64,000 nucleotides of DNA from Natronobiforma cellulositropha (GCF_025629245.1 NZ_JANZXN010000060.1:1-64000), one strand, 5' to 3'; shown: positions 8,945-50,443, numbered from the stretch's first letter. A program made the numbers and translations. Notes: generated from the sequence alone by a model not told the origin.

Positions 8945-9067
8945 GAGTTTCGTGGATTGTGAATCATAGGTACCTATCCCCCACATCAGACCACTATTGT
9001 CCACCCATGTGCAATTCAGGTGATCGTTTGTTTCATCGTCCGGTGAGCGACGCGCTGGCGACCTCGC

Positions 9068-10021
9068 TCACTCGCTCGCCCGGCGCGCCGCTGCACGCGC
9101 CTGCTCGAGGCTCTTGCCCTCGCGGAGGAGCGCGTCGACGAACAGTTCGCCCGCCCTGTACGACGAGCGGACCATCGGGCCGCTCGCACAGTACAAAAAT
9201 CCGAGTTCCTCTTCTGCGACCTGCCGCCAGGTGTCGTACTTCTGTGGGTGGTCGTAGCGGCGAACCGGGAGGTGGCTCCGTGAGGGCCGGAGATACTGCC
9301 CGAGGGTGACCACGTCGACGCCGCGCTCGCGGCAGTCGGCGAGTGTCTGGTAGACCTCGTGGTCGTACTCGCCGTGGCCGAGCATGATCGAGGTCTTCGT
9401 GTAGATCTCCGAGTGGCGGTCGACGTACTCGAGGACGCCCAGACTCTGTTCGTAGCCCGCTCGGCGGTCCCGGACGGGGAACTGCAAGCGCTCGACGGTC
9501 TCGACGTTGTGGGCGATCACGTCCGGACGGGCGTCGACGATGCGCTGGACGAGGCGCTCGTCGCCCTGGAAGTCCGGGATCAGAACCTCCACCAGAATGT
9601 CGGGGTGGCGGCGCTTGATCTCCCGAATCGTCTCCGCGAAGTGGCCCGCTCCCTGGTCGGGGAGGTCGTCGCGGTCGACGCTCGTCAAGACGACGTAGTC
9701 GAGACCGATCTCGGCGACCGCTCGAGCGACGTTCACCGGCTCCTCCGGGTCCGGCGGCTCCATCCCACCGGTCTCGACGTCACAGAAGTTACAGCCTCTC
9801 GAGCAGCTATCACCCAGCAGCATGAACGTCGCGGTGCCGCCAGCGTCATCCGCTGCCGACGGCCGGTGGCCGCCCGACCAGCACTCGCCGAGGTTCGGAC
9901 AGTTGGCCTCCTCACAGACGGTGTGGAGACCGTACTCGCGCAGGGTCTCTCTGATACCGACGAACTCCCGGCCCGCGGGAGGACGCATCTTCAGCCAGTC
10001 GGGTTTGCGTGCGCGAGACAC
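9068..10021 (-). CDS. lipA: Lipoyl synthase
   Basis: This 317-residue radical-SAM enzyme inserts two sulfurs into octanoyl groups. It carries both clusters: the auxiliary CEEANCPNLGEC (C-x4-C-x5-C) and the radical-SAM CSRGCNFC. I chose the GTG at 10021, giving a VSRARKPDWLKM start as in homologues; the longer frame to 10225 is antisense to the PH-domain gene. It lies upstream of and on the same strand as the dehydrogenase operon, whose E2 it would lipoylate. Confidence 0.93.
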   Translation of the reverse strand: MSRARKPDWLKMRPPAGREFVGIRETLREYGLHTVCEEANCPNLGECWSGGHRPSAADDAGGTATFMLLGDSCSRGCNFCDVETGGMEPPDPEEPVNVARAVAEIGLDYVVLTSVDRDDLPDQGAGHFAETIREIKRRHPDILVEVLIPDFQGDERLVQRIVDARPDVIAHNVETVERLQFPVRDRRAGYEQSLGVLEYVDRHSEIYTKTSIMLGHGEYDHEVYQTLADCRERGVDVVTLGQYLRPSRSHLPVRRYDHPQKYDTWRQVAEEELGFLYCASGPMVRSSYRAGELFVDALLREGKSLEQARAAARRASE

Positions 10022-10141
10022 AGCAGACGTTCGGTCTCGAGGGTGAAAAACGCTGGCGGTCGGCCGAGGAGAACGCTCGAGGAGACGCACCCGCTGCGAA
10101 CCGACACCAGCTTTACGCCGGCGAGGGGCGTACGGTCTCCG

Positions 10142-10684
10142 ATGGCTCCGGTGCTCGAGCGCGGCGACCCCGACTGGCTCCACCTCGCGGGTGACGAGCG
10201 CGTCGTCTGGGAGAGTCGCCCGCACGTGGTCGCGATGGGGAAAGAGGTACCGATCGCGACGGCGCTCGTCCTGGTCGGCTTCGTCCTCGCCCTCTGGAGT
10301 GCGACGAGTGGGGTCTCGAGCCTGCTGACGCTGGCTGGCGTCGTGCTGATCCTCGCCGGTGGCGTCCTCGCGCTCGTCCGCTACGTCTACTGGACGAACA
10401 CGCGCTACGTCATCACCACCGGCGAACTCTACAAGAAACGCGGTGTCGTCTCGCGGGACGTCGTCCAGTTCCGTCTCGAGCGGGTCCAGAACACGAGCCT
10501 CGAGCAGTCCGTGCTGGGGCGGCTCCTCGGTTACGGCGAGCTGACGGTCTACACGGCTGGCTCGGGCGAGCCGGAGCTGACCTTCGAGCGGGTACCCCAG
10601 CCCGGCAAGGCGAACCGGATACTCAGCGGCGAACTGGGCGGGAACGTCGAGGTAGATCGCGATCCGTCGACGGCGCGCTCGTGA
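10142..10684 (+). CDS. PH-domain (bPH2) membrane protein
   Basis: This 180-residue protein has two adjacent hydrophobic segments (about 37-57 and 61-83), then a bacterial PH-like domain with the NTRYVITTGELYKKRGVVSR signature. Small membrane proteins of this kind are common in archaea and their role is unclear. It is divergent from lipA, with 120 bases between the starts. The ATG at 10142 fits a start just before the LERGDPDWLHL segment. Confidence 0.85.
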   Translation: MAPVLERGDPDWLHLAGDERVVWESRPHVVAMGKEVPIATALVLVGFVLALWSATSGVSSLLTLAGVVLILAGGVLALVRYVYWTNTRYVITTGELYKKRGVVSRDVVQFRLERVQNTSLEQSVLGRLLGYGELTVYTAGSGEPELTFERVPQPGKANRILSGELGGNVEVDRDPSTARS

Positions 10685-10699
10685 ACGCGTCTCGAGGCG

Positions 10700-12508
10700 T
10701 CAGGGGGTGGCGTTGTGAGCGTGTTCTCGAAGTGCCTCGAGTACCTCGATAGTGACCGGTGCGGTGCCGTCCGAAGTGAGGAGGCTACTGTCGAGCGCGT
10801 CGGCGTCGAACGGCGTGAACGTCAGGTCCTCGATCGGTTCGTACGAGTCGTTGAGGTCGGTGACGAGTTCGTCGAGGAGGGTCGCGATGGCGACCTGTTC
10901 CCCCAGTTTGACGGAGTAGATGTGGTCGGTCGGGTAGTGGACACCTGCCCAGAGTCGCCCCATCCCGATGTTCTCGGCGAGCTTGTCGATCTCTCCGTGA
11001 ACGGTCAGCGTGTCCGTGTCGTTCTCGTCGAGTTCGTCCCGGCCGCCGTCGCCGTCGGGGACGTAGATCGTCTCGAAGTCCGGTAAGTCGAGGAGATCTG
11101 AGTCCTCGAAGAAGGCCTTGACGATCGTCGAACAGGCACCACCGATCGCCGAGTGGCCGCTCGGATACGCCGGGTGTGCGGGCGATCCCTCCCGATAGGT
11201 GAGCGAGAGGTAGCGGTAGATGGTGTTCCAGCCCTCGACCGCCGTGTGATCGTAGACGGTAGAGTCGAAGACGAGGTCAGACATCACGTCGTCTGGATCG
11301 TCGAGCTGGACGGTCTGGCTGGCGACTTCCGGGCGGGGGCGTCGGTGGACCAGCCACTTCTGGTACCAGGCGGCGTTCAAGGCGTTTCTCGTGACTCGAG
11401 CGAGCAGGTCCAAGAGACCGACACCCCCGTAGTTGACGTACTGGAGGACGGTGTCGCTGTCGACGTTCGGCAGTCCCGCGTCGAACTCCGCGCCCCACTC
11501 GAAGAGCTGGAGGGCCGGAACGACGTACGGCACGTACGCCGGGTCGACCCTGACGTACGCCGCCAGGTCGCGCCCAGTGGTGATCCAGCGTTCCTCGTCC
11601 TCCTCGAGGTCGTTCGCGCCGTCTGGATCGCCGTCACCCGGTTCAGAGCCGCTCGAGATACCGGAGCCGAGAATCATCATCGAGCGCTGGCCACGGTGGT
11701 TGTTTTCGAACATGTCTCTGCCCTCTTCGAACGGACGAACCTTGGGATCCATCGGCACGTTTCCGAGGGACGCACGCTGGATCAGGAACTGGCTGAGATA
11801 CGGGCCGGAGCGGGCGTGATCGGAGACGCCGCGGAATGGGTTGTCGAGGTCGACCCACTCGGGATCGAGGTCGTAGGTGACACCGATCAACGTGTCGGTA
11901 TCGTCCTCGTAGTCGTCGTAGAGACTGTCGTCGGTGTACTGTCCGAGAGTGACGTCACGGAACTGCTCCATCCAGTACAGTTCGACCAGTTCGGCACCGA
12001 ACAGGTCGCTGTCGAACGACGGCGGCGCAGGCATCGTTCCCATCCAGGAATCCATTCCATCGGTCGGGAAGTGGTGACCAGCGGGCGGGGAAACGAGCCG
12101 TCGCTCTCCGGCACCGAGGTCGATGTCGTCGTAGTCGCCGTCGTTCTCGAGGATATCGACGAACGCGTCGTACACCTCGACCTCGATGCGGTGGGTTTGG
12201 GAGCTTCCGCCGAGTCCTTTGAGATACGCGCCATAGTAGTACTCCTGGCCGTCGTCGGTCACCGAAATCGGGTCGTCGTTCGACTGGTCGTCGTACTCGT
12301 CGAGTTCGCGGATGAGTTCGTTCGCCGCGTTCACCCGATTGTTGTACGCTTCGTCACGCCGAGAGCCGATCGCTCGCAGTTCGGTCTCGGAAGCGGACAC
12401 CGATGGGACACCGAGTGTCGCGAGCGCCCCTGCACCAGCGACACCCTGTAAGTAGCCGCGTCGACCGAGTAACCGTTCGATACCGCCTGCAGAACTGTCA
12501 TCAGACAT
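10700..12508 (-). CDS. Tat-exported vanadium haloperoxidase-like / PAP2 phosphatase-fold enzyme
   Basis: This 602-residue protein starts with a twin-arginine signal (RRGYLQGVAGAGALA, about 16-30) and is very acidic. The vanadate or phosphate-binding signature is complete: KWLVHRRPRPE, YPSGHS, and GRLWAGVHYPTD (Arg-x5-His-x3-Asp). In this fold the residues bind vanadate in haloperoxidases or phosphate in acid phosphatases. The long N-terminal helical region (to about 350) and spacing fit vanadium-dependent haloperoxidases better. It would act outside the cell. Haloperoxidase against phosphatase is not settled. Convergent with the PH-domain gene. Confidence 0.88.
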   Translation of the reverse strand: MSDDSSAGGIERLLGRRGYLQGVAGAGALATLGVPSVSASETELRAIGSRRDEAYNNRVNAANELIRELDEYDDQSNDDPISVTDDGQEYYYGAYLKGLGGSSQTHRIEVEVYDAFVDILENDGDYDDIDLGAGERRLVSPPAGHHFPTDGMDSWMGTMPAPPSFDSDLFGAELVELYWMEQFRDVTLGQYTDDSLYDDYEDDTDTLIGVTYDLDPEWVDLDNPFRGVSDHARSGPYLSQFLIQRASLGNVPMDPKVRPFEEGRDMFENNHRGQRSMMILGSGISSGSEPGDGDPDGANDLEEDEERWITTGRDLAAYVRVDPAYVPYVVPALQLFEWGAEFDAGLPNVDSDTVLQYVNYGGVGLLDLLARVTRNALNAAWYQKWLVHRRPRPEVASQTVQLDDPDDVMSDLVFDSTVYDHTAVEGWNTIYRYLSLTYREGSPAHPAYPSGHSAIGGACSTIVKAFFEDSDLLDLPDFETIYVPDGDGGRDELDENDTDTLTVHGEIDKLAENIGMGRLWAGVHYPTDHIYSVKLGEQVAIATLLDELVTDLNDSYEPIEDLTFTPFDADALDSSLLTSDGTAPVTIEVLEALREHAHNATP

Positions 12509-42483: not shown

Positions 42484-42825
42484 TCACACCCCCTCGAGTA
42501 CCGACCGGAACGTAAGCGACTCAGAGCGGGTATCGAGGAGGGCAACCGTCCGGTGGTCGTCGGGAATCGTCGGGAAGTGCCCACCGGGGTTGGCGAGCGT
42601 GGTCCGGCCGACCTCGCGGCTGACCCGCTCGTGGTGGTGGCCGTAACAGACGTAGTCGAACTCCTGGCGCTCGGCGAGTTTGTCGACCGCCTCGAGGTCT
42701 TCGCCGTGGACCAGAGCGACGCGAAGGCCGTCGAACTCGAGGTCGGCGACCCGGCCGTGGAGTTCGCTGGCGCCGCCGAGGGCCTCGAAGCCGGACTCGA
42801 GTCCGGCGACCTCGCCGTCGTTGTT
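42484..42825 (-). pseudogene. C-terminal fragment of a YfcE/MJ0936-like metallophosphoesterase
   Basis: On the minus strand the reading frame runs from NNDGEVAG, through VALVHGED and CYGHHHERVSREVGRTTLANPGG, to a stop, with no internal stop. This is the second half of a small Mn/Fe phosphodiesterase, starting at the conserved asparagines. The first half, with the metal-binding DxH and GD motifs, is absent here and I do not find it at the other island end. The break at about 42825 marks the left island junction. Confidence 0.8.
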
Positions 42826-42890
42826 TTGAAAGGAGCAGATATCTATTGGTAGATCGACGTGGTATCTATCACCAAGGAGAAGACCACTTT

Positions 42891-43337
42891 ATGGCAGATA
42901 CCCAGCCCGCGATGACCTATCCGACTGAGGGCCAATACCAGCGGTGGAAAACACGGGCCGCCGAGATGGACATATCTGTCAGTGAGTTTATGCAAGCGAT
43001 GGTCGAGGCCGGCATGAAAAAATTCGACGCAGACGCCGTCGAACCTGACGAATCTGCTCGCGAACTCCGCCGCCAGCGCAACGACCTACGAGACGAATTT
43101 CAGGCCACCCGCGAGCGAATCGAGAAACTCGAGCGTGACCTGTATCGCGGCGAGCGCCGGACCATCATCGAGTACGTCCACGAAAACCCTGGCACTACCT
43201 ACGGCGAGCTTCAACAACACATCATCAATACCGTACCGTCGCGCGTGAACCGCTTGCTCGACACGCTCGAGGGGGAAGAAGTTCGCGCCGACGACGGGGC
43301 CTACTATCCAGTCGACGACGGTGGTCGCAGTGGCTAA
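42891..43337 (+). CDS. Recombinase-associated protein with coiled coil and winged helix
   Basis: This 148-residue protein starts with a ribbon-helix-like segment (QYQRWKTRAAEMDISVSEFM), a charged coiled coil (RELRRQRNDLRDEFQATR), and a C-terminal winged helix (PGTTYGELQQHIINTVPSRVN). AAGGAGA precedes the ATG at 42891. Similar genes sit directly before integrases in other haloarchaeal elements. It overlaps the next gene. A DNA-binding role in controlling excision or integration is inferred. Confidence 0.75.
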   Translation: MADTQPAMTYPTEGQYQRWKTRAAEMDISVSEFMQAMVEAGMKKFDADAVEPDESARELRRQRNDLRDEFQATRERIEKLERDLYRGERRTIIEYVHENPGTTYGELQQHIINTVPSRVNRLLDTLEGEEVRADDGAYYPVDDGGRSG

Positions 43338-43794
43338 GTCCGTGACGCCCACGGGGAATATGGGTGTTTACAAGCACCTCGACGATGTTCCAGAACGCTA
43401 CCGGTTGGCGAACTTCGCCAGCGAGTACGACGACCGAGACACATGGGCAGCGTACGTCGCCGACTGCCATGCCAATCGAAGCGAGTACGTCGATCGGATG
43501 CTTCGCCGGTTCGAACGCCGGTGGAAGGCGCACATGGTCGACCGGGGACGGCACCACGCACTGGCGACGCCAGCTGACATCGAGGCGTTCTGTGCGGACC
43601 TAGTTGAGCGAAACACGCTCTCGACTTCCTACGAAACGTACTGGTTGCGCATCGAAGCCTTCTACCAGTGGCTGCAGGCGCACCCCGACCATCCCCACGT
43701 CTACCACCCGGTACTCATGGCCGCTGCCGTACACCCGAACGCGGCGACGCTTTGGGAGTACCGTATCGAGCGAACGGGGGTGAGCAACCCATGA
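43321..43794 (+). CDS. Lone SAM-like core-binding domain protein of a recombinase module
   Basis: This 157-residue protein has a helical core-binding domain like the N-terminal DNA-binding part of tyrosine recombinases (ALATPADIEAFCADLVERNTLSTS, YETYWLRIEAFYQWLQ) but no catalytic domain. It overlaps the previous gene by 17 bases and the next by four (ATGA), so all three are one unit. It may be a DNA-binding partner of the integrase that follows. A GTG at 43327 is an alternative start. Confidence 0.75.
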   Translation: MVAVAKSVTPTGNMGVYKHLDDVPERYRLANFASEYDDRDTWAAYVADCHANRSEYVDRMLRRFERRWKAHMVDRGRHHALATPADIEAFCADLVERNTLSTSYETYWLRIEAFYQWLQAHPDHPHVYHPVLMAAAVHPNAATLWEYRIERTGVSNP

Positions 43795-44954
43795 CCCGCC
43801 ACGAAGCCAATACTGACGCGAACACCGACATGGAGATGGACGCTAACACGGAGGCCGGTACCAGTCAGGCTCGCAAGCAGCTGGCAGCCGCGTTCGGACG
43901 CGACATCGATCCGCTCAAACCGTATGCCGTGACGTTCGAAGAGACAGATATCGACCCGTTCGACGTATTCGTCGAGGAAGTGCTCGAATCGAAGAACCTG
44001 TCGTCGTCTACGGTCGAGCGCTATCACACCTACTTCGACGAGTGGCGTATGTTCATGGCCGAACAGGGGCGCTATCCAGCGTGTCCGAACGAGGGGCACG
44101 TCCGGACGTTTATCCACCATGAGCTACACGAGCAAGGGCACAAGCCTAGGACCGTCCGTGAGAAGTTGCAAAAGCTGAATCGTGCATACGAGTATTGGCA
44201 GACCGATAGCGCACTCCCGCACCCCCAGGAGTTCAATCCGTTCAAGCTGGCACGCGAGAAGGTCGATCTGAGCCGCCAGACCAAGAAGCCGCCGCATAAC
44301 ATCCCGCTGACGGACCTTCGCGAACGGGTTCAGTCGATCGGCCATGTCCGTGACCGAGCGTACGTCGTCCTCCCGTTGAAGCTCGGCCTACGTGCCAGTG
44401 AACTCACGAACATCCAGCTGCAGGATGTTAGTTTGGCCCATCCCGATATCCGTGCGCACTACCCAGAACTCGGGATGCATCCTCGCCTCGAAGATCGGGA
44501 GAACGCGATCTACGTGCCTCCGAGCGGCGAACGTGAAGGGAACAAATCAGAGCTAGGTCGGATCCTGCCGCTCGACGACGAATCCCGGCGGGTACTCGTT
44601 AAGTGGCTGCTGATCCGCCCTGATAACGGCCTTCCGTGGGTATTCTTGACGAAACAGGCACACACGAAACCCGAGCATGACGGTGTGAACGACGTCTGGA
44701 AGGTGGTTTTCCGGCCGGAGTACGACGAGACCGACGAACACCGCGCTGTGACGTCGCATTTCGGCCGCCACTTCTTCAGTACCTACTGGCGGGTGAAGCA
44801 AGACGCGCCGCGCGAGGTCGTGAAATATATGCGCGGGGACAAAACAGATCGGGCAGCATCTAACGGTCGTGAGGCGATCGACGAGTACCTCCACACGTTC
44901 TACGACGATGTTGAGCAGTTTTATCGCGAGAACGTGTTCAAGCTGGATCTGTAA
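43791..44954 (+). CDS. Tyrosine recombinase / integrase
   Basis: This 387-residue site-specific recombinase has an N-terminal SAM-like domain (about 60-140) and a catalytic domain with LGLRASEL (Arg), a lysine in GNKSELGRILPL, SHFGRHFF (His-x2-Arg), and a C-terminal Tyr region, DEYLHTFYDDVEQFY. It is likely the enzyme that inserted this island. The N-terminal 45 residues are low complexity. Confidence 0.9.
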   Translation: MTRHEANTDANTDMEMDANTEAGTSQARKQLAAAFGRDIDPLKPYAVTFEETDIDPFDVFVEEVLESKNLSSSTVERYHTYFDEWRMFMAEQGRYPACPNEGHVRTFIHHELHEQGHKPRTVREKLQKLNRAYEYWQTDSALPHPQEFNPFKLAREKVDLSRQTKKPPHNIPLTDLRERVQSIGHVRDRAYVVLPLKLGLRASELTNIQLQDVSLAHPDIRAHYPELGMHPRLEDRENAIYVPPSGEREGNKSELGRILPLDDESRRVLVKWLLIRPDNGLPWVFLTKQAHTKPEHDGVNDVWKVVFRPEYDETDEHRAVTSHFGRHFFSTYWRVKQDAPREVVKYMRGDKTDRAASNGREAIDEYLHTFYDDVEQFYRENVFKLDL

Positions 44955-45173: not shown

Positions 45174-46313
45174 ATGGGAGACGAGTTCCGGTGCGTCGAC
45201 CTCTTTTGTGGTGCCGGTGGTTTCTCGCTCGGGTTTCAAAGCGCAGGGTTCGATGTCGTCGCGTCTGTGGACCGGAACGAGGCCGCTCTCGAGACATACT
45301 CGCACAACTTCGACAACGTGGCTACGTTCGAAACTGACATCCGGAACTTTACGCTCAATATGTTCGAGGAGCATTCCGGGTACGACGCTCGGGACATCGA
45401 TGTCGTCATCGGTGGTCCACCGTGCAAGGGGTTCTCTACAGCTGGGCGGATGGACCCCAACGATCCCAGGAACGAACTCGTCGTTGAATACGCGAAGACC
45501 GTTGCCGAACTGGATCCCGAAGTCGTAGTTCTTGAAAATGTTACTGGCTTCCTCAACATGCATGGCGGCCAGTACCATGAAGAACTCCGCGAGACGCTGA
45601 GCGAAATAGGCTACACCGTCCAACAACCCGAAGTGCTGACCGCCGCAGACTATGGAGTACCGCAGTTGCGTGAACGGGTGATCATCGTCGCTACGAGGGG
45701 CGGCCGCGTAGAGGTTGCCTCGCCAACGCACAGACCCAGAGAGGGGCAAGAGCCGCTCCGTGGCGGTGAGGATCTCGATCCGTACGTGACCGTCGAGGAC
45801 GCCGTGGGCGACCTGTCGTTCTTGCGCTACGGACAGGAGGCGACCCAATACAAACTCCGGCCCCTAACGGACTACCAGCGCGAAATGAGAGATGGGGCCG
45901 ACGAGCTTTACAACCACAAGGCGCCCAACCACGGCAAGACGGTCCGCGAGCGGTATGACCAATTCGACTATGGGCAGGAAATGAGCGAACTGGACGAACA
46001 GTACCAGACGAAGAAACACTCGATGAAGCGGTGGCACCCAGAGGAGCCGGCACCGACGGTGACAACGCTCCCCGAGGACTTCGTCCACTACGACCGGCTA
46101 CGAATCCCCACTGTTCGAGAGGTTGCCCGTATCCAGTCGTTCCCCGACTGGTTCGAGTTCAAAGGCCCGCGGACGACTGGCGGGCAGAGGCGGCGAAACT
46201 CGGTACCGCAGTACACACAAGTCGGGAACGCGGTCCCGCCAAAATTTGCGGAGGCAATTGCGGATCGAGTGGCGGACCATCTGACAGCCCAGCGAATTAT
46301 TCCGGGAACTTGA
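45174..46313 (+). CDS. DNA (cytosine-5) methyltransferase
   Basis: This 379-residue protein has the C5-methylase motifs: DLFCGAGGFSLGF (I), GGPPCKGFS with catalytic Cys84 (IV), LENVTGF (VI, about 120), RERVIIV (VIII), and QVGNAVPP (X). The target-recognition stretch lies between motifs VIII and X (about 180-300). The last 17 bases overlap the 3' end of the nuclease-helicase gene on the opposite strand. It would protect host DNA from the companion enzymes; the sequence recognised is not known. Confidence 0.93.
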   Translation: MGDEFRCVDLFCGAGGFSLGFQSAGFDVVASVDRNEAALETYSHNFDNVATFETDIRNFTLNMFEEHSGYDARDIDVVIGGPPCKGFSTAGRMDPNDPRNELVVEYAKTVAELDPEVVVLENVTGFLNMHGGQYHEELRETLSEIGYTVQQPEVLTAADYGVPQLRERVIIVATRGGRVEVASPTHRPREGQEPLRGGEDLDPYVTVEDAVGDLSFLRYGQEATQYKLRPLTDYQREMRDGADELYNHKAPNHGKTVRERYDQFDYGQEMSELDEQYQTKKHSMKRWHPEEPAPTVTTLPEDFVHYDRLRIPTVREVARIQSFPDWFEFKGPRTTGGQRRRNSVPQYTQVGNAVPPKFAEAIADRVADHLTAQRIIPGT

Positions 46314-47967
46314 TCTGGTCTTCCCCGTCCCTCGTGCTGATCGCGGCCTTGTCAGCGAGGTACTCGCGGAAGAAGCTCTGGGCGTTCTGGTCCTGAAACG
46401 AGAGGTCGAAGTTACCAGGTATTACCTCGATACCGTCCCCGCGCTCCAGTTTGGTGTCAATGTCGACGGCCTCGGCTATCCGCCTGATGTCGGCCACCAG
46501 ATCCATGGCGACTACCTGATCTTTGCCCTCCGCAAGTCGGAGTCCGCGGCCGAGCTGCTGGAGAAAAATCCGTCGGCTGTGGGTCACCCGGAGGAACACG
46601 ATGATGTCCACCTCTGGGATGTCGACGCCTTCGTTCAGCATGTCGACCGCGGTCAGCACTTCGGCCTTTCCGCGCCGGAACGCTCGGAGCCGCCGTTCGA
46701 TCTCTCGGTTGTCGAGGTCGCTATGGAGTGGGCGCGCCCCGAAGCCACCCTCCCGCAGCCGGTCGGCCATCCGCTTTGCGTAGTCGATCGATGGACAGTA
46801 GAAGATCGCCCGTCCGGTGTCGCTGCTCTCCCAGACGGACTCGAACTCGTCCATGATTTTGTCGTCGCGCTCCTGAATGAACAGCCGCCTGTTGAGGTCG
46901 CGGATGGTGTAGTTCTGTGAAGAGCGGTTTTGGACTGCCTCCCAGTCGACGTTGTCGCAGTACAGCCGGTAGTCGACGTCGGTGAGGTACCCCTTCCTGA
47001 GCCCCTCGATGACGTCGATGGTCAACTCGTCCCGGATCGGTCCGAAGAGTCCTTCAAGCGACCGTTCGTCTTCGCGCCAAGGCGTCGCCGTCAGGCCTAG
47101 CAAGAACTCCGGATCGGTCCTGTTCAGCACCCGTTTGTACGACGGAGCAACCGCGTGGTGTGCCTCGTCGACGACAACGATGTCGTACTTCTGTGCTTCT
47201 TCGGCGGGAAACCTCTCCGTACTGGCCAGGGTTTGGAACGTACCGACGTCGATTCCACCGTCGAAGGCTGGGGACTCGTTTCCGTACCACAAATGGGTAC
47301 TAACGTCCTTCGGGAGATGGTTCCACATGGATTCTTCGAACTGTCGGACGAGAGCCTTCTGGTCTGCGAGGACCAACACGCGGGCGTCGGGACGGCCACG
47401 GAGGACTTCGCTCAAGAAGCTACCCGCAACGAACGTCTTCCCGAGCCCGGTTGCGAGCGAGAGGAGCGCCTCGCCGTAGCCATCGTGGTAGAGCTCCAGC
47501 AGACGTTGGATTGGCTCTCGCTGGTAGTCGTAGGGTTCGTAGTCGTTTTCTGGCCACCGGGATAGCGACTCGTAGTTCCTCAAGAGATCGTTGCCCTCCA
47601 TAATCCCAATGGAGTAACCAGCTCCCCTCAGTTCGCGGAGCCGTTCGTTGGCTGTGTCAGATAGGCGGGTGTTCGTGACGCAAACACCCTCGTCAACGCC
47701 ATAGAACTCCATGGCACGCTTCACGTCGTTGACGATCCGCTTGCTGGCCGACCGCTCTACCGCAGACTTATACTTCACTTGTGCGACGATCTCGCGCTCG
47801 TCGCTCGAAGCCACTACGTCGGCTCCCCGATCGCCCGGTCCGCCTACCAGTGCCACGTGCGACCACCCGCTGTGGTTGAAGAGGCGGCCCACGGCGCGCT
47901 CCAGACACCTCCAGGAGCCTCGTTCGATTCGCTTCGTTGAGAGGAATCCGTCTGGATCGGCGGTCAT
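46297..47967 (-). CDS. Mrr-type nuclease fused to SF2 helicase
   Basis: This 556-residue protein starts with an Mrr-like restriction-nuclease domain: GPGDRGADVV (catalytic Asp near 50) and AQVKYKS (Q63-x-K65). An SF2 helicase follows, with ATGLGKT (Lys177), DEAH (267-270), TATPW (293-297), and LQQLGRGLR in motif VI. I start at the ATG at 47967, one base after the GHKL ATPase stop; 33 upstream codons in frame are basic and overlap that gene. It probably cuts or remodels DNA using ATP. Confidence 0.9.
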   Translation of the reverse strand: MTADPDGFLSTKRIERGSWRCLERAVGRLFNHSGWSHVALVGGPGDRGADVVASSDEREIVAQVKYKSAVERSASKRIVNDVKRAMEFYGVDEGVCVTNTRLSDTANERLRELRGAGYSIGIMEGNDLLRNYESLSRWPENDYEPYDYQREPIQRLLELYHDGYGEALLSLATGLGKTFVAGSFLSEVLRGRPDARVLVLADQKALVRQFEESMWNHLPKDVSTHLWYGNESPAFDGGIDVGTFQTLASTERFPAEEAQKYDIVVVDEAHHAVAPSYKRVLNRTDPEFLLGLTATPWREDERSLEGLFGPIRDELTIDVIEGLRKGYLTDVDYRLYCDNVDWEAVQNRSSQNYTIRDLNRRLFIQERDDKIMDEFESVWESSDTGRAIFYCPSIDYAKRMADRLREGGFGARPLHSDLDNREIERRLRAFRRGKAEVLTAVDMLNEGVDIPEVDIIVFLRVTHSRRIFLQQLGRGLRLAEGKDQVVAMDLVADIRRIAEAVDIDTKLERGDGIEVIPGNFDLSFQDQNAQSFFREYLADKAAISTRDGEDQIKFPE

Positions 47968-47968
47968 C

Positions 47969-50443
47969 TCAGGAGGAGCCCGTCGCCTCGGCTTCGAGGA
48001 GCCGTAGGCTCTGCGCTGCGCGGTCGACTTCGATCCGCCTCGCCGCACGGGCTGTGGCTGGATCAACCTCTGTCGCCTCTTCGGCGAGCATGATCACGTC
48101 GCTCAGGTACGCACGGAACTTGTCAACAGATCGTTCCTTCAGCTTGTCCGTGCCGAGTTTGGCGTACGACTGCTGCCATACGGCACCGTCGAAGAACTGC
48201 TCGGGGTGGGCCTCGAAGTAGCGAACCAGTTCGCGGTGCGAAGCGTACTCAAGGTACGCACTCGACGCGAGTACTTCCTCGACTGCTTCCTCCCCCAGGT
48301 TCTCTTTGAGCCAGATGTTTTCCCTGACGTCGTCTTCCACGTCGCTGTCGACATCGAAATCCTGAAGTTCGAACTCCTCATCCGCGATCCGGTGTTTTAT
48401 ATGCCGGAGTTGGTCCTGAGCCCGCGACGCCAGTCCTTCCGGACTGACCCGGCTGTCGGAGCAGTACTTCGCCTGTAATTCCGCGAAGAGGTGCGTGTGC
48501 CGCCAGTGGCCGGGGTTGTCCATCTGGTGACGGTACGTGTAGGCAGCTTCCATCAGGACGGTCGTGATCGGGTCGTGGCCGAACTCGGTGAAGAACTGGT
48601 CACCGGGATCGTACCTGATCGTTCGTTCATCGTAGGAATCGCGAGCGACGTCCACAGGTCCGTCCTCGAGCTCACCATCGATCAGACGGTAGACGTTGAA
48701 CTCGATGTCGGGTTGGTCGATATCATCTAAGCCGTATTTCCCCGAAAGCGACTCGTCACGCTCGTACTCGGGTTCCGTCTCCACTCCGTCCCCAACCCCC
48801 GCATCGTCGGTAGCCCCTCCATCGCTGTCTGTTCCGGTCTCGGGTTCAGTTGTTGTGGTTTCCCCCCCGGTGACCCCGTCTCCAGTGGTATCGGCCGATG
48901 GGTCGATGTTAAACCCAGGCCCAGAACTGCCCCCGCTCGAGTCACCACCTCCTCCGTCGTCGCCAGCCGAGTCCGTTTCGCCACCAGAACCAGTGGTGGG
49001 AGCCGTCCCTGAAGAACTCCGCATCGCACGTTCTGCTCGCTCGACCAGCTCCCACCACTTCGAGTCGTCTTGGTATTCGTCTTCGCCGTCCCAAAACTTC
49101 TCTGCCCACTCCTTCGGACGGGAGTTGTCCCCTGTTACGTTACCGTCCTCGTCGACCTCGCCAGGGACGAGCCGCTTTTTGCCGACTTCGTTCCCCGTGC
49201 GGTACCCCTTGTACAGCTTGCCGATGGGGGACCGGTTCGGCGCAAAGCTATCGTCTCTGTTTGGCCTCAACGGTGCCTCTCCGCGAACCGCTTTCCGGAC
49301 CTTCTCCCACCTTGGGTTCGACTTCTCGAAGGAGTCCTTCGTGTTTGAAACCGGAACGAAGTCGATGTGGAGTTCGCCGACGATCCGGCCACCCCAGTGG
49401 AGCGTGTCGAGTGGGTATTCCCTCTCCATTACGCCGTTGGAGTTCTCCCACTTGAACAGCGACTTGTCGTGCTTTTCGATAACTCGGCCATTGCGGATCA
49501 GGTCGATGCCGAATCGTTCTTCGTCGAAGAACCGCTGGATCCCGACCCACCCCCACACGACTTGCTCTCGGTGGACGACGTCGCCCCCGTCGTTGCACAC
49601 CATGCACTCGGGCTCGTCCGGCAGCTCTCCGCCTATGAACGGGTCCGCCAGCCACGACCAGCACTCTTTGCAGTAGAAGCCTTCGCCGACCTTCTCTTCG
49701 ATTTGTTCCATCGCGGGGTACTCTTCGCCACCGATCTCCACGCTGCGCTCTTCGCTCCACGTGCAGGCGGGACGGGGGCTGAGTTCGTCATTGTTCAGGA
49801 CGATCTTTACGTTCTCCCGCTCGAGTACGGGAGTGTACCAATCTCCGAGCTTCTCGGGCATCTTCCACTTTCGACGGAGCGTTCTCGCCATCTCGTTGAG
49901 CCTGCCGATCCGAATCTCCGTCCCGTGGTCGGACGAATCTATCTTCTCCTCGTACTCGACGTCGACCTCGAAACTCCCCTGTCCCTTTAGCTTGCGGAAG
50001 TCGATCGTCGCGACTGCCCAGTTGTCGTCGCCCGTGCGTGTCGTCCGGACTTTCGTCCGATTACCAAGTCGGGCGGTGGCAATATTGAACCCCATCCCGA
50101 AGAGCCCCATTTCGTCGAGCGGGTCTTTGCCCGAATAGCCGGCCCTGAGGTTGTTTCGGAGGGCTTCTTTGGACATCCCCGGGCCGTTGTCTCGTACGAC
50201 CACTTCAGCGTTTTCGTAGTCATCCTTGTACTCGTGGATGGTAGGTGGCTGGATCTCGATTACGAGAGTTTCTCCACCGTCAGAACTGTGACCGCGCCCC
50301 GGCGTTCCCTGAATTCCCTCGTCCAGAGAATTGTCGATGAACTCGGCGAAACAGCGCGCTGCCGACAGGTCAACCTGACCCAGCATCTTCAGGACTCGCG
50401 GTGTCGGCGTAATATCGATAGTTTCTGTTGTTTGGGATGACAT
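47969..50443 (-). CDS. MORC/paraMORC-like GHKL ATPase with zinc finger
   Basis: This 824-residue protein begins with a GHKL ATPase module: EFIDNSLDE (Asn38 of the N box), RDNGPGM (84-90), and MGLFGMGFN (112-120). A zinc-finger insert follows (CKEC at 258-261, CMVC at 280-283). A low-complexity Ser/Gly/Thr/Asp linker (about 490-580) joins a helical C-terminal domain. In the family, ATP binding closes a clamp on DNA. The stop lies one base from the nuclease-helicase start, so both are one operon. The long linker is unusual. Assigning it as MORC-like rests on the motif order; other GHKL families are possible. Confidence 0.85.
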   Translation of the reverse strand: MSSQTTETIDITPTPRVLKMLGQVDLSAARCFAEFIDNSLDEGIQGTPGRGHSSDGGETLVIEIQPPTIHEYKDDYENAEVVVRDNGPGMSKEALRNNLRAGYSGKDPLDEMGLFGMGFNIATARLGNRTKVRTTRTGDDNWAVATIDFRKLKGQGSFEVDVEYEEKIDSSDHGTEIRIGRLNEMARTLRRKWKMPEKLGDWYTPVLERENVKIVLNNDELSPRPACTWSEERSVEIGGEEYPAMEQIEEKVGEGFYCKECWSWLADPFIGGELPDEPECMVCNDGGDVVHREQVVWGWVGIQRFFDEERFGIDLIRNGRVIEKHDKSLFKWENSNGVMEREYPLDTLHWGGRIVGELHIDFVPVSNTKDSFEKSNPRWEKVRKAVRGEAPLRPNRDDSFAPNRSPIGKLYKGYRTGNEVGKKRLVPGEVDEDGNVTGDNSRPKEWAEKFWDGEDEYQDDSKWWELVERAERAMRSSSGTAPTTGSGGETDSAGDDGGGGDSSGGSSGPGFNIDPSADTTGDGVTGGETTTTEPETGTDSDGGATDDAGVGDGVETEPEYERDESLSGKYGLDDIDQPDIEFNVYRLIDGELEDGPVDVARDSYDERTIRYDPGDQFFTEFGHDPITTVLMEAAYTYRHQMDNPGHWRHTHLFAELQAKYCSDSRVSPEGLASRAQDQLRHIKHRIADEEFELQDFDVDSDVEDDVRENIWLKENLGEEAVEEVLASSAYLEYASHRELVRYFEAHPEQFFDGAVWQQSYAKLGTDKLKERSVDKFRAYLSDVIMLAEEATEVDPATARAARRIEVDRAAQSLRLLEAEATGSS

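Follow-up and report, generated by a model that had tools for sequence, protein, structure and literature searches.

A compact haloarchaeal locus of MORC ATPase, nuclease-helicase and cytosine methyltransferase as a predicted stand-alone restriction-modification system

Do three closely packed genes of the haloarchaeon Natronobiforma cellulositropha form a defence system of their own, and is it of a kind already described? The question arises from a locus in the 64,000-nucleotide stretch of genomic DNA analysed here (the window), in which a C5 DNA methyltransferase faces an operon for a GHKL ATPase and a nuclease-helicase. Prokaryotic MORC ATPases are the proposed ancestors of eukaryotic chromatin MORCs, and the case for a role in restriction operons comes from gene neighbourhoods. 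Few complete-looking examples are as small as the window locus, whose simplicity makes it a good test case: with one C5 DNA methyltransferase detected in the genome, loss of 5-methylcytosine and loss of restriction could be read gene by gene.

The C5-cytosine DNA methyltransferase (DCM, P0001, 379 aa) is encoded on the plus strand at 45174-46313. Its 3' end overlaps by 17 bases (46297-46313) the 3' end of a minus-strand gene at 46297-47967, which encodes an Mrr-type nuclease fused to an SF2 (RadD/XPB/SauUSI-like) helicase (P0002, 556 aa). Upstream of it on the same strand, a MORC-family GHKL ATPase (P0003, 824 aa) occupies 47969-50443. In the window sequence, a single base separates the MORC stop codon (47971-47969) from the helicase ATG (47967-47965), the spacing expected of an operon. 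All three ORFs are complete at these coordinates, which are those originally predicted, and the predicted arrangement of a DCM converging on a two-gene operon of a GHKL ATPase and an Mrr-SF2 protein is borne out by the gene ends, 46313 on the plus and 46297 on the minus strand, and by Pfam domains. The catalytic motifs of all three enzymes are intact by inspection and largely invariant in homologues. Rfam and tRNA scans of the 64,000-nt window returned no matches.

The DCM contains a DNA_methylase domain (PF00145, E 1.5e-67 in Pfam) and the motifs PPCKGF (PC), LENV, QLRER and QVGNAVPP, all read from the sequence; the domain match makes it a methylase of the mostly cytosine-modifying kind that the class-1 operons of Iyer et al. 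2008 contain. It is the sole PF00145 protein found in the window genome. As predicted, P0002 joins nuclease and helicase in a single chain, with Mrr_cat at the N-terminus (res. 16-129; 47581-47922, minus strand; PF04471, E 2.2e-14) alongside ResIII (E 8e-29) and Helicase_C (E 1e-16). The nuclease residues D50, Q63 and K65 are invariant, and the helicase motifs read ATGLGKT, DEAH and QQLGRGLR. P0002 also matches profiles for XPB (E 2e-15) and rad25 (E 5e-8), as expected of the Rad25-like helicases of class-1 operons.

The ATPase had been labelled a paraMORC. Its GHKL and S5 ATPase module, delimited by its motif set (res. about 5-470; 49034-50431, minus strand), contains HATPase_c_3 (Pfam, E 2.3e-11) and the motifs EFIDN, DNGPG, GLFGMGF and GTEI. 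Residues E34/D37/N38, D85/G89, G116/G118 and G174/T175 are invariant in 47 homologues, so that all four GHKL ATP-binding motifs are present; K369, the basic catalytic residue of the S5 domain, is equally invariant. Within S5, GIDLIRNGRVI (res. 312-322) fits GhXhhpXXRhl, the motif that sets MORCs apart from other GHKL proteins (Iyer et al. 2008, PMC2292703). A strict match to this motif occurs in 11 of the 47 homologues; in most of the others the tenth residue appears to be K. A six-homologue profile searched against the PDB finds MORC3 and MORC4 first (E 1e-6 to 6e-5). An AlphaFold2 model of P0003 (mean pLDDT 84, disordered only at res. 480-554) best matches the MORC4/MORC3 ATPase-CW structures, followed closely by MORC2-DNA and Hsp90/TRAP1 structures (E about 1e-14 to 1e-12 for MORC4/MORC3 and MORC2). 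Inside the ATPase module, a zinc-ribbon insert (C258-C261-C280-C283; 49595-49672, minus strand) keeps C258, C261 and C280 in 45/47 relatives, C283 being the fourth cysteine. By motif, profile and predicted fold, P0003 is a true prokaryotic MORC and not a paraMORC. The earlier label has to be given up, as has membership in paraMORC1-5, because paraMORCs lack the unifying motif and the predicted fold is nearest to eukaryotic MORC4/MORC3.

An acidic, disordered linker (res. 480-554) precedes the C-terminal domain (res. 556-824; 47972-48778, minus strand), which is built of a small β domain followed by helices. These ~270 residues have no Pfam or PDB match by sequence, and we rejected a recognised DNA-binding or nuclease domain on that ground. 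A fast-swapping specificity domain was rejected too: the C-terminus is less conserved than the ATPase part, no clear replacement was seen, and it stays constant in a pair of loci in which the DCM was swapped (L058/L062, below).

The distribution of the genes shows how tightly they are linked. An alignment-based scan of one genome per species gave 176 MORC relatives; the best 80 of these and four plasmid loci, from many phyla, form a set of 84 loci that is biased to close relatives of P0003, so that its counts describe this subfamily and not all MORCs. Single-sequence P0003 scans of genome contigs and viral contigs found no relatives. The nuclease-helicase is the next gene after the MORC, on the same strand, in 82 of the 84 loci, and a C5 methyltransferase lies within the flanking DNA examined in 82/84. 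The exceptions include two loci at contig ends (L037, L048), a short contig (L053) and a locus that may be a deletion product (L083). In the last, a 903 aa ORF (9004-11715) begins as a MORC and near its end matches protein X, an accessory protein of the relatives, and no helicase follows; it looks like a deletion that fused MORC to X. A link between X and MORC in clustering was traced to this one odd ORF and discarded. A survey of 391 halobacterial genomes places both the MORC proper (E 1e-281) and the helicase in only two, the window genome and one other; a related DCM (E below 1e-60) is present in 11. MORC and helicase are thus obligately paired; the DCM often accompanies them but is in wider use and also occurs outside these loci. 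On plasmids, the four records with the best MORC matches are the ones that contain the four helicase relatives with at least 98% length coverage, and MORC and helicase distances correlate (Spearman 0.79; permutation maximum 0.21). The association of the genes is not chance. The original prediction that the three proteins belong together, and that their homologues would prove linked rather than apart, therefore stands on these counts.

Plasmid copies include several departures from the common layout. An IS3-type transposase gene separates MORC and helicase on a Pseudosulfitobacter plasmid (L005, 10281-11410), and a Deinococcus plasmid copy adjoins a CBASS-like set of nucleotidyltransferase, E2/UBC, Mov34 and SAVED genes (L008, 13191-17320). 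A Streptomyces plasmid protein (L009, 8461-10869) fuses helix-turn-helix domains to a MORC-like GHKL module; no helicase or DCM was recognised in the flanking DNA examined.

Many relatives carry additional genes. Protein X (175-200 aa) lies behind the helicase in most proteobacterial and actinobacterial loci and is found by profile in 66/84, with some low scores; its model is confident (pLDDT 91.5) and has no significant PDB match, so that assignment to a known fold was abandoned. The repair endonuclease Vsr occurs in 65/84 loci, and an Eco29kI-family GIY-YIG nuclease is added in many alphaproteobacterial ones. A Chloroflexota/Ruegeria/Agrobacterium branch lacks X; in three of its four loci an MvaI/BcnI-family restriction enzyme takes the position of X (Pfam, E 2e-45), and an HhH-GPD glycosylase often replaces Vsr. 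X-less relatives may carry an MvaI/BcnI or an EcoRII-C restriction endonuclease. The accessory nucleases thus belong to the sequence-specific restriction endonuclease families Eco29kI, MvaI/BcnI and EcoRII-C, which points to a restriction context. In the helicase tree, the window groups with Haloarcula and Methanoregula, and these join Bacteroidota with a support of 100. None of the eight helicases of this archaeal and Bacteroidota branch is accompanied by X, and the MORC-helicase pair is intact throughout; judged by gene content, the compact form is not unique to the window, the branch being generally without X. Directly upstream of MORC, Bacteroidota loci encode a conserved protein of 99-102 aa (L048 443-742, L058 3758-4057, L067 8691-8996, L077 4516-4824, L093 8714-9013), which might stand in for X.

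At the window locus, none of the genes called next to it resembles X, Vsr, a glycosylase, or an Eco29kI, MvaI/BcnI or EcoRII-C type nuclease; a type II restriction-modification system with a separate, linked endonuclease of these three types was rejected on this basis. Across the window genome, Vsr is absent in searches with positive controls; X was not found in a search without a positive control, and searches for PF09019 and PF15515, also without positive controls, were empty. Two archaeal relatives have neighbours of other kinds. In Methanoregula (L016, 4067-8417) the MORC-helicase pair comes after a DCM, a HEF_HK-like double HATPase protein and a protein of 281 aa, so that two kinds of GHKL protein stand side by side in one locus. 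A McrBC-like pair, seen in translations only, lies directly upstream of the Haloarcula MORC locus (L012, 3400-6794).

The window locus has the setting of mobile DNA. Two adjoining tyrosine-recombinase-type genes lie at 43321-44954 on the plus strand, one (146 aa) with an integrase SAM-like domain only and the other (388 aa) with a full Phage_integrase domain; they are possibly a split or paired integrase. Before them, a metallophosphoesterase gene on the minus strand (42490-42829) is truncated to its C-terminal part from NNDGE on; it is cut before this motif at about 42829, and the window does not contain its first 56 codons. In relatives this phosphoesterase gene is intact and lies between RIO1 and a KH-domain gene. 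Of eight relatives inspected, five have it next to KH-protein and thermosome genes; all five carry RIO1 on the opposite flank, and four of them have LigA further out (in the fifth, the stretch examined ends before LigA, or LigA is elsewhere). Beyond the break, the window has the pair of integrase-type genes, then the DCM and the MORC operon. Judged by this gene order, an island truncated the phosphoesterase gene; its left end is at the break, and its right end falls somewhere between RIO1 and the start of the MORC gene. The truncated phosphoesterase and the integrase-type genes together indicate that the locus is cargo of an integrated island. Carriage of such MORC operons on mobile DNA was also noted by Iyer et al. 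2008 (PMC2292703).

Comparison of individual loci suggests that the pair changes partners. The Bacteroidota loci L058 and L062 are 86% identical in SF2, 87% in Mrr, 81% in the MORC ATPase and 86% in the MORC C-terminus; the identity of their DCMs is only 31% for the core and 16% for the target region. In two haloarchaeal genomes (G387, G192; loci L120, L121), a DCM 56-58% identical to that of the window converges on a GmrSD-type protein (PF03235, PF07510) that stands in place of MORC-helicase. The layout is common to both genomes (L120 2330-7750, L121 3354-8722): an EcoRII-C-like gene, a divergent DCM, and the GmrSD-type gene converging on the second DCM with an overlap of about 10 bases. The Haloarcula locus looks like the same set of two DCMs and an EcoRII-C protein, but with MORC-helicase. 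From these few cases, methyltransferases and nucleases appear to be exchanged around a near-constant MORC-helicase pair. We did not find such partner exchange described in the literature, and it raises a testable question, namely how these systems read their target. Exchange around a constant pair may mean that the pair takes its target from the exchangeable partner, of which only the DCM remains here. MORC and Mrr-SF2 could then be a specificity-neutral cutting module directed by an exchangeable methyltransferase, X or type II nuclease, with the haloarchaeal three-gene form as the simplest, DCM-guided version, a proposal we make tentatively and would expect to fail more readily than to hold. 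Unrelated DCMs can recognise one and the same sequence, so the swaps are no proof that the MORC-helicase pair is without specificity of its own.

What, then, do the three genes do? A stand-alone ATP-dependent restriction-modification system is the best reading, and probably the correct one. It builds on the gene structure, the intact motifs, the strict linkage of MORC to the nuclease-helicase, the near-constant linkage to a C5 methyltransferase and the mobile island; from these we infer a restriction-modification role, DNA clamping by the MORC and cutting by the Mrr domain. The methyltransferase would mark a cytosine in a specific sequence of the host genome. The MORC, as an ATP-gated dimer, would be expected to clamp or loop DNA and to work with the Mrr-SF2 protein, which would translocate on DNA and cut DNA with unmarked sites. 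G:T repair enzymes are expected where 5-methylcytosine deaminates, and their presence in most relatives (Vsr or HhH-GPD glycosylase) counts for this reading. Iyer et al. 2008 (PMC2292703) proposed that MORC loops DNA between the sites of recognition and cleavage.

The window has neither X nor a type II restriction endonuclease, one or the other of which is present in most bacterial relatives, so its copy might be incomplete. The locus would then be the remnant of a larger system that lost its sequence-specific nuclease or X, its MORC-helicase inactive or a helper beside a solitary methyltransferase. The frequency of X, the restriction enzymes that may accompany X-less relatives and the failure to find X in the window genome all agree with such a loss. 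However, the three ORFs are intact with their catalytic residues, and the archaeal and Bacteroidota branch keeps MORC-helicase intact without X, which argues for a maintained function in its absence; we regard decay as unlikely, if the most serious of the rivals. The helicase part gives rise to another reading, its nearest PDB structures being RadD, XPB and SauUSI-like ones, with 7clg the top solved relative. As a Hachiman/RadD-type sensor of DNA damage or phage replication, the helicase would survey DNA, Mrr would kill the cell or degrade phage DNA, and the methyltransferase would protect or regulate. It fits this account that a haloarchaeal DCM of the same clade has a GmrSD partner, from a class of effectors employed outside classical restriction; a damage sensor would not need the C5 methyltransferase that is kept in 82/84 loci, and we give the sensor a rather small chance.

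In PADLOC, the helicase part matches the mREase_IV profile best (E 5e-41), and this, with 7clg, recalls a methylation-dependent, type IV-like effector that attacks cytosine-methylated DNA. A cytosine methyltransferase stands beside it in nearly every locus, and the combination would be self-destructive unless the specificities differ, which makes such an effector very improbable. We rate marginally lower still a repair module outside defence, in which a MutL-like MORC would act with the helicase on G:T mismatches at methylated sites. In its favour are the frequent presence of a neighbouring Vsr or HhH-GPD glycosylase and the MutL parallel noted by Iyer et al. 2008 (PMC2292703); against it, the control-backed search found no Vsr in the window genome, and relatives have restriction enzymes as their accessory nucleases.

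Whether the presumed restriction-modification system is new can be judged against known ones. Class 1 operons combine a MORC, an SF2 Rad25-like helicase with an N- or C-terminal RE-fold nuclease and a methylase that is mostly a cytosine methylase, often with Vsr, in a patchy, mobile distribution over bacteria and euryarchaea (Iyer, Abhiman and Aravind 2008, PMC2292703). The window has the same three components; it differs in lacking Vsr and any further nuclease, and in a DCM that is convergent rather than part of the operon, a layout seen in several relatives. The closest relative, Haloarcula sebkhae JCM 19018 (L012/L015; MORC 54-55%, helicase 69-70% and DCM2 54-57% identical), shares the MORC-helicase order but has a second DCM, an EcoRII-C-type protein, McrBC-like genes upstream and a co-directional DCM2. 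Mza (MzaABCDE) likewise has a MORC/GHKL protein, and a relative locus (L010) has a C5 methyltransferase; the window genome has the Mrr-SF2 helicase instead of Z1 (PF10593), which, as predicted, is absent genome-wide (control genome positive), and we therefore rejected Mza membership. P0003 matches MzaB at E 0.03 in PADLOC, and among the 47 relatives MzaB matches number 7 in PADLOC (weak) and 29 in NCBIfam; the matches to MzaB, like those to TmtA, are weak and probably stem from the GHKL ATPase module that these proteins have in common. The paraMORC families, paraMORC1-5 and paraMORC3/Shedu VcSduA among them (PMC12137116), also tie a GHKL ATPase to restriction or defence nucleases, but P0003 has the MORC-unifying motif and no recognised fused C-terminal nuclease. 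SauUSI, type ISP and HsdR proteins join nuclease and SF2 motor in one chain but lack MORC and differ in methylation and recognition domains, the similarity being concentrated in the motor region. The window locus fits no system in PADLOC or NCBIfam, and the literature we found holds no experimental study of this operon type and no activity for a close member. The suggestion of an undescribed variant does not survive: the operon class is in Iyer et al. 2008 (PMC2292703), and the compact form also occurs in the archaeal and Bacteroidota branch. The match to a named three-part system that was to speak against novelty thus exists in substance, in that class, but the class carries no system name. 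The locus is a new, unusually simple member of a kind predicted in 2008, not a new system.
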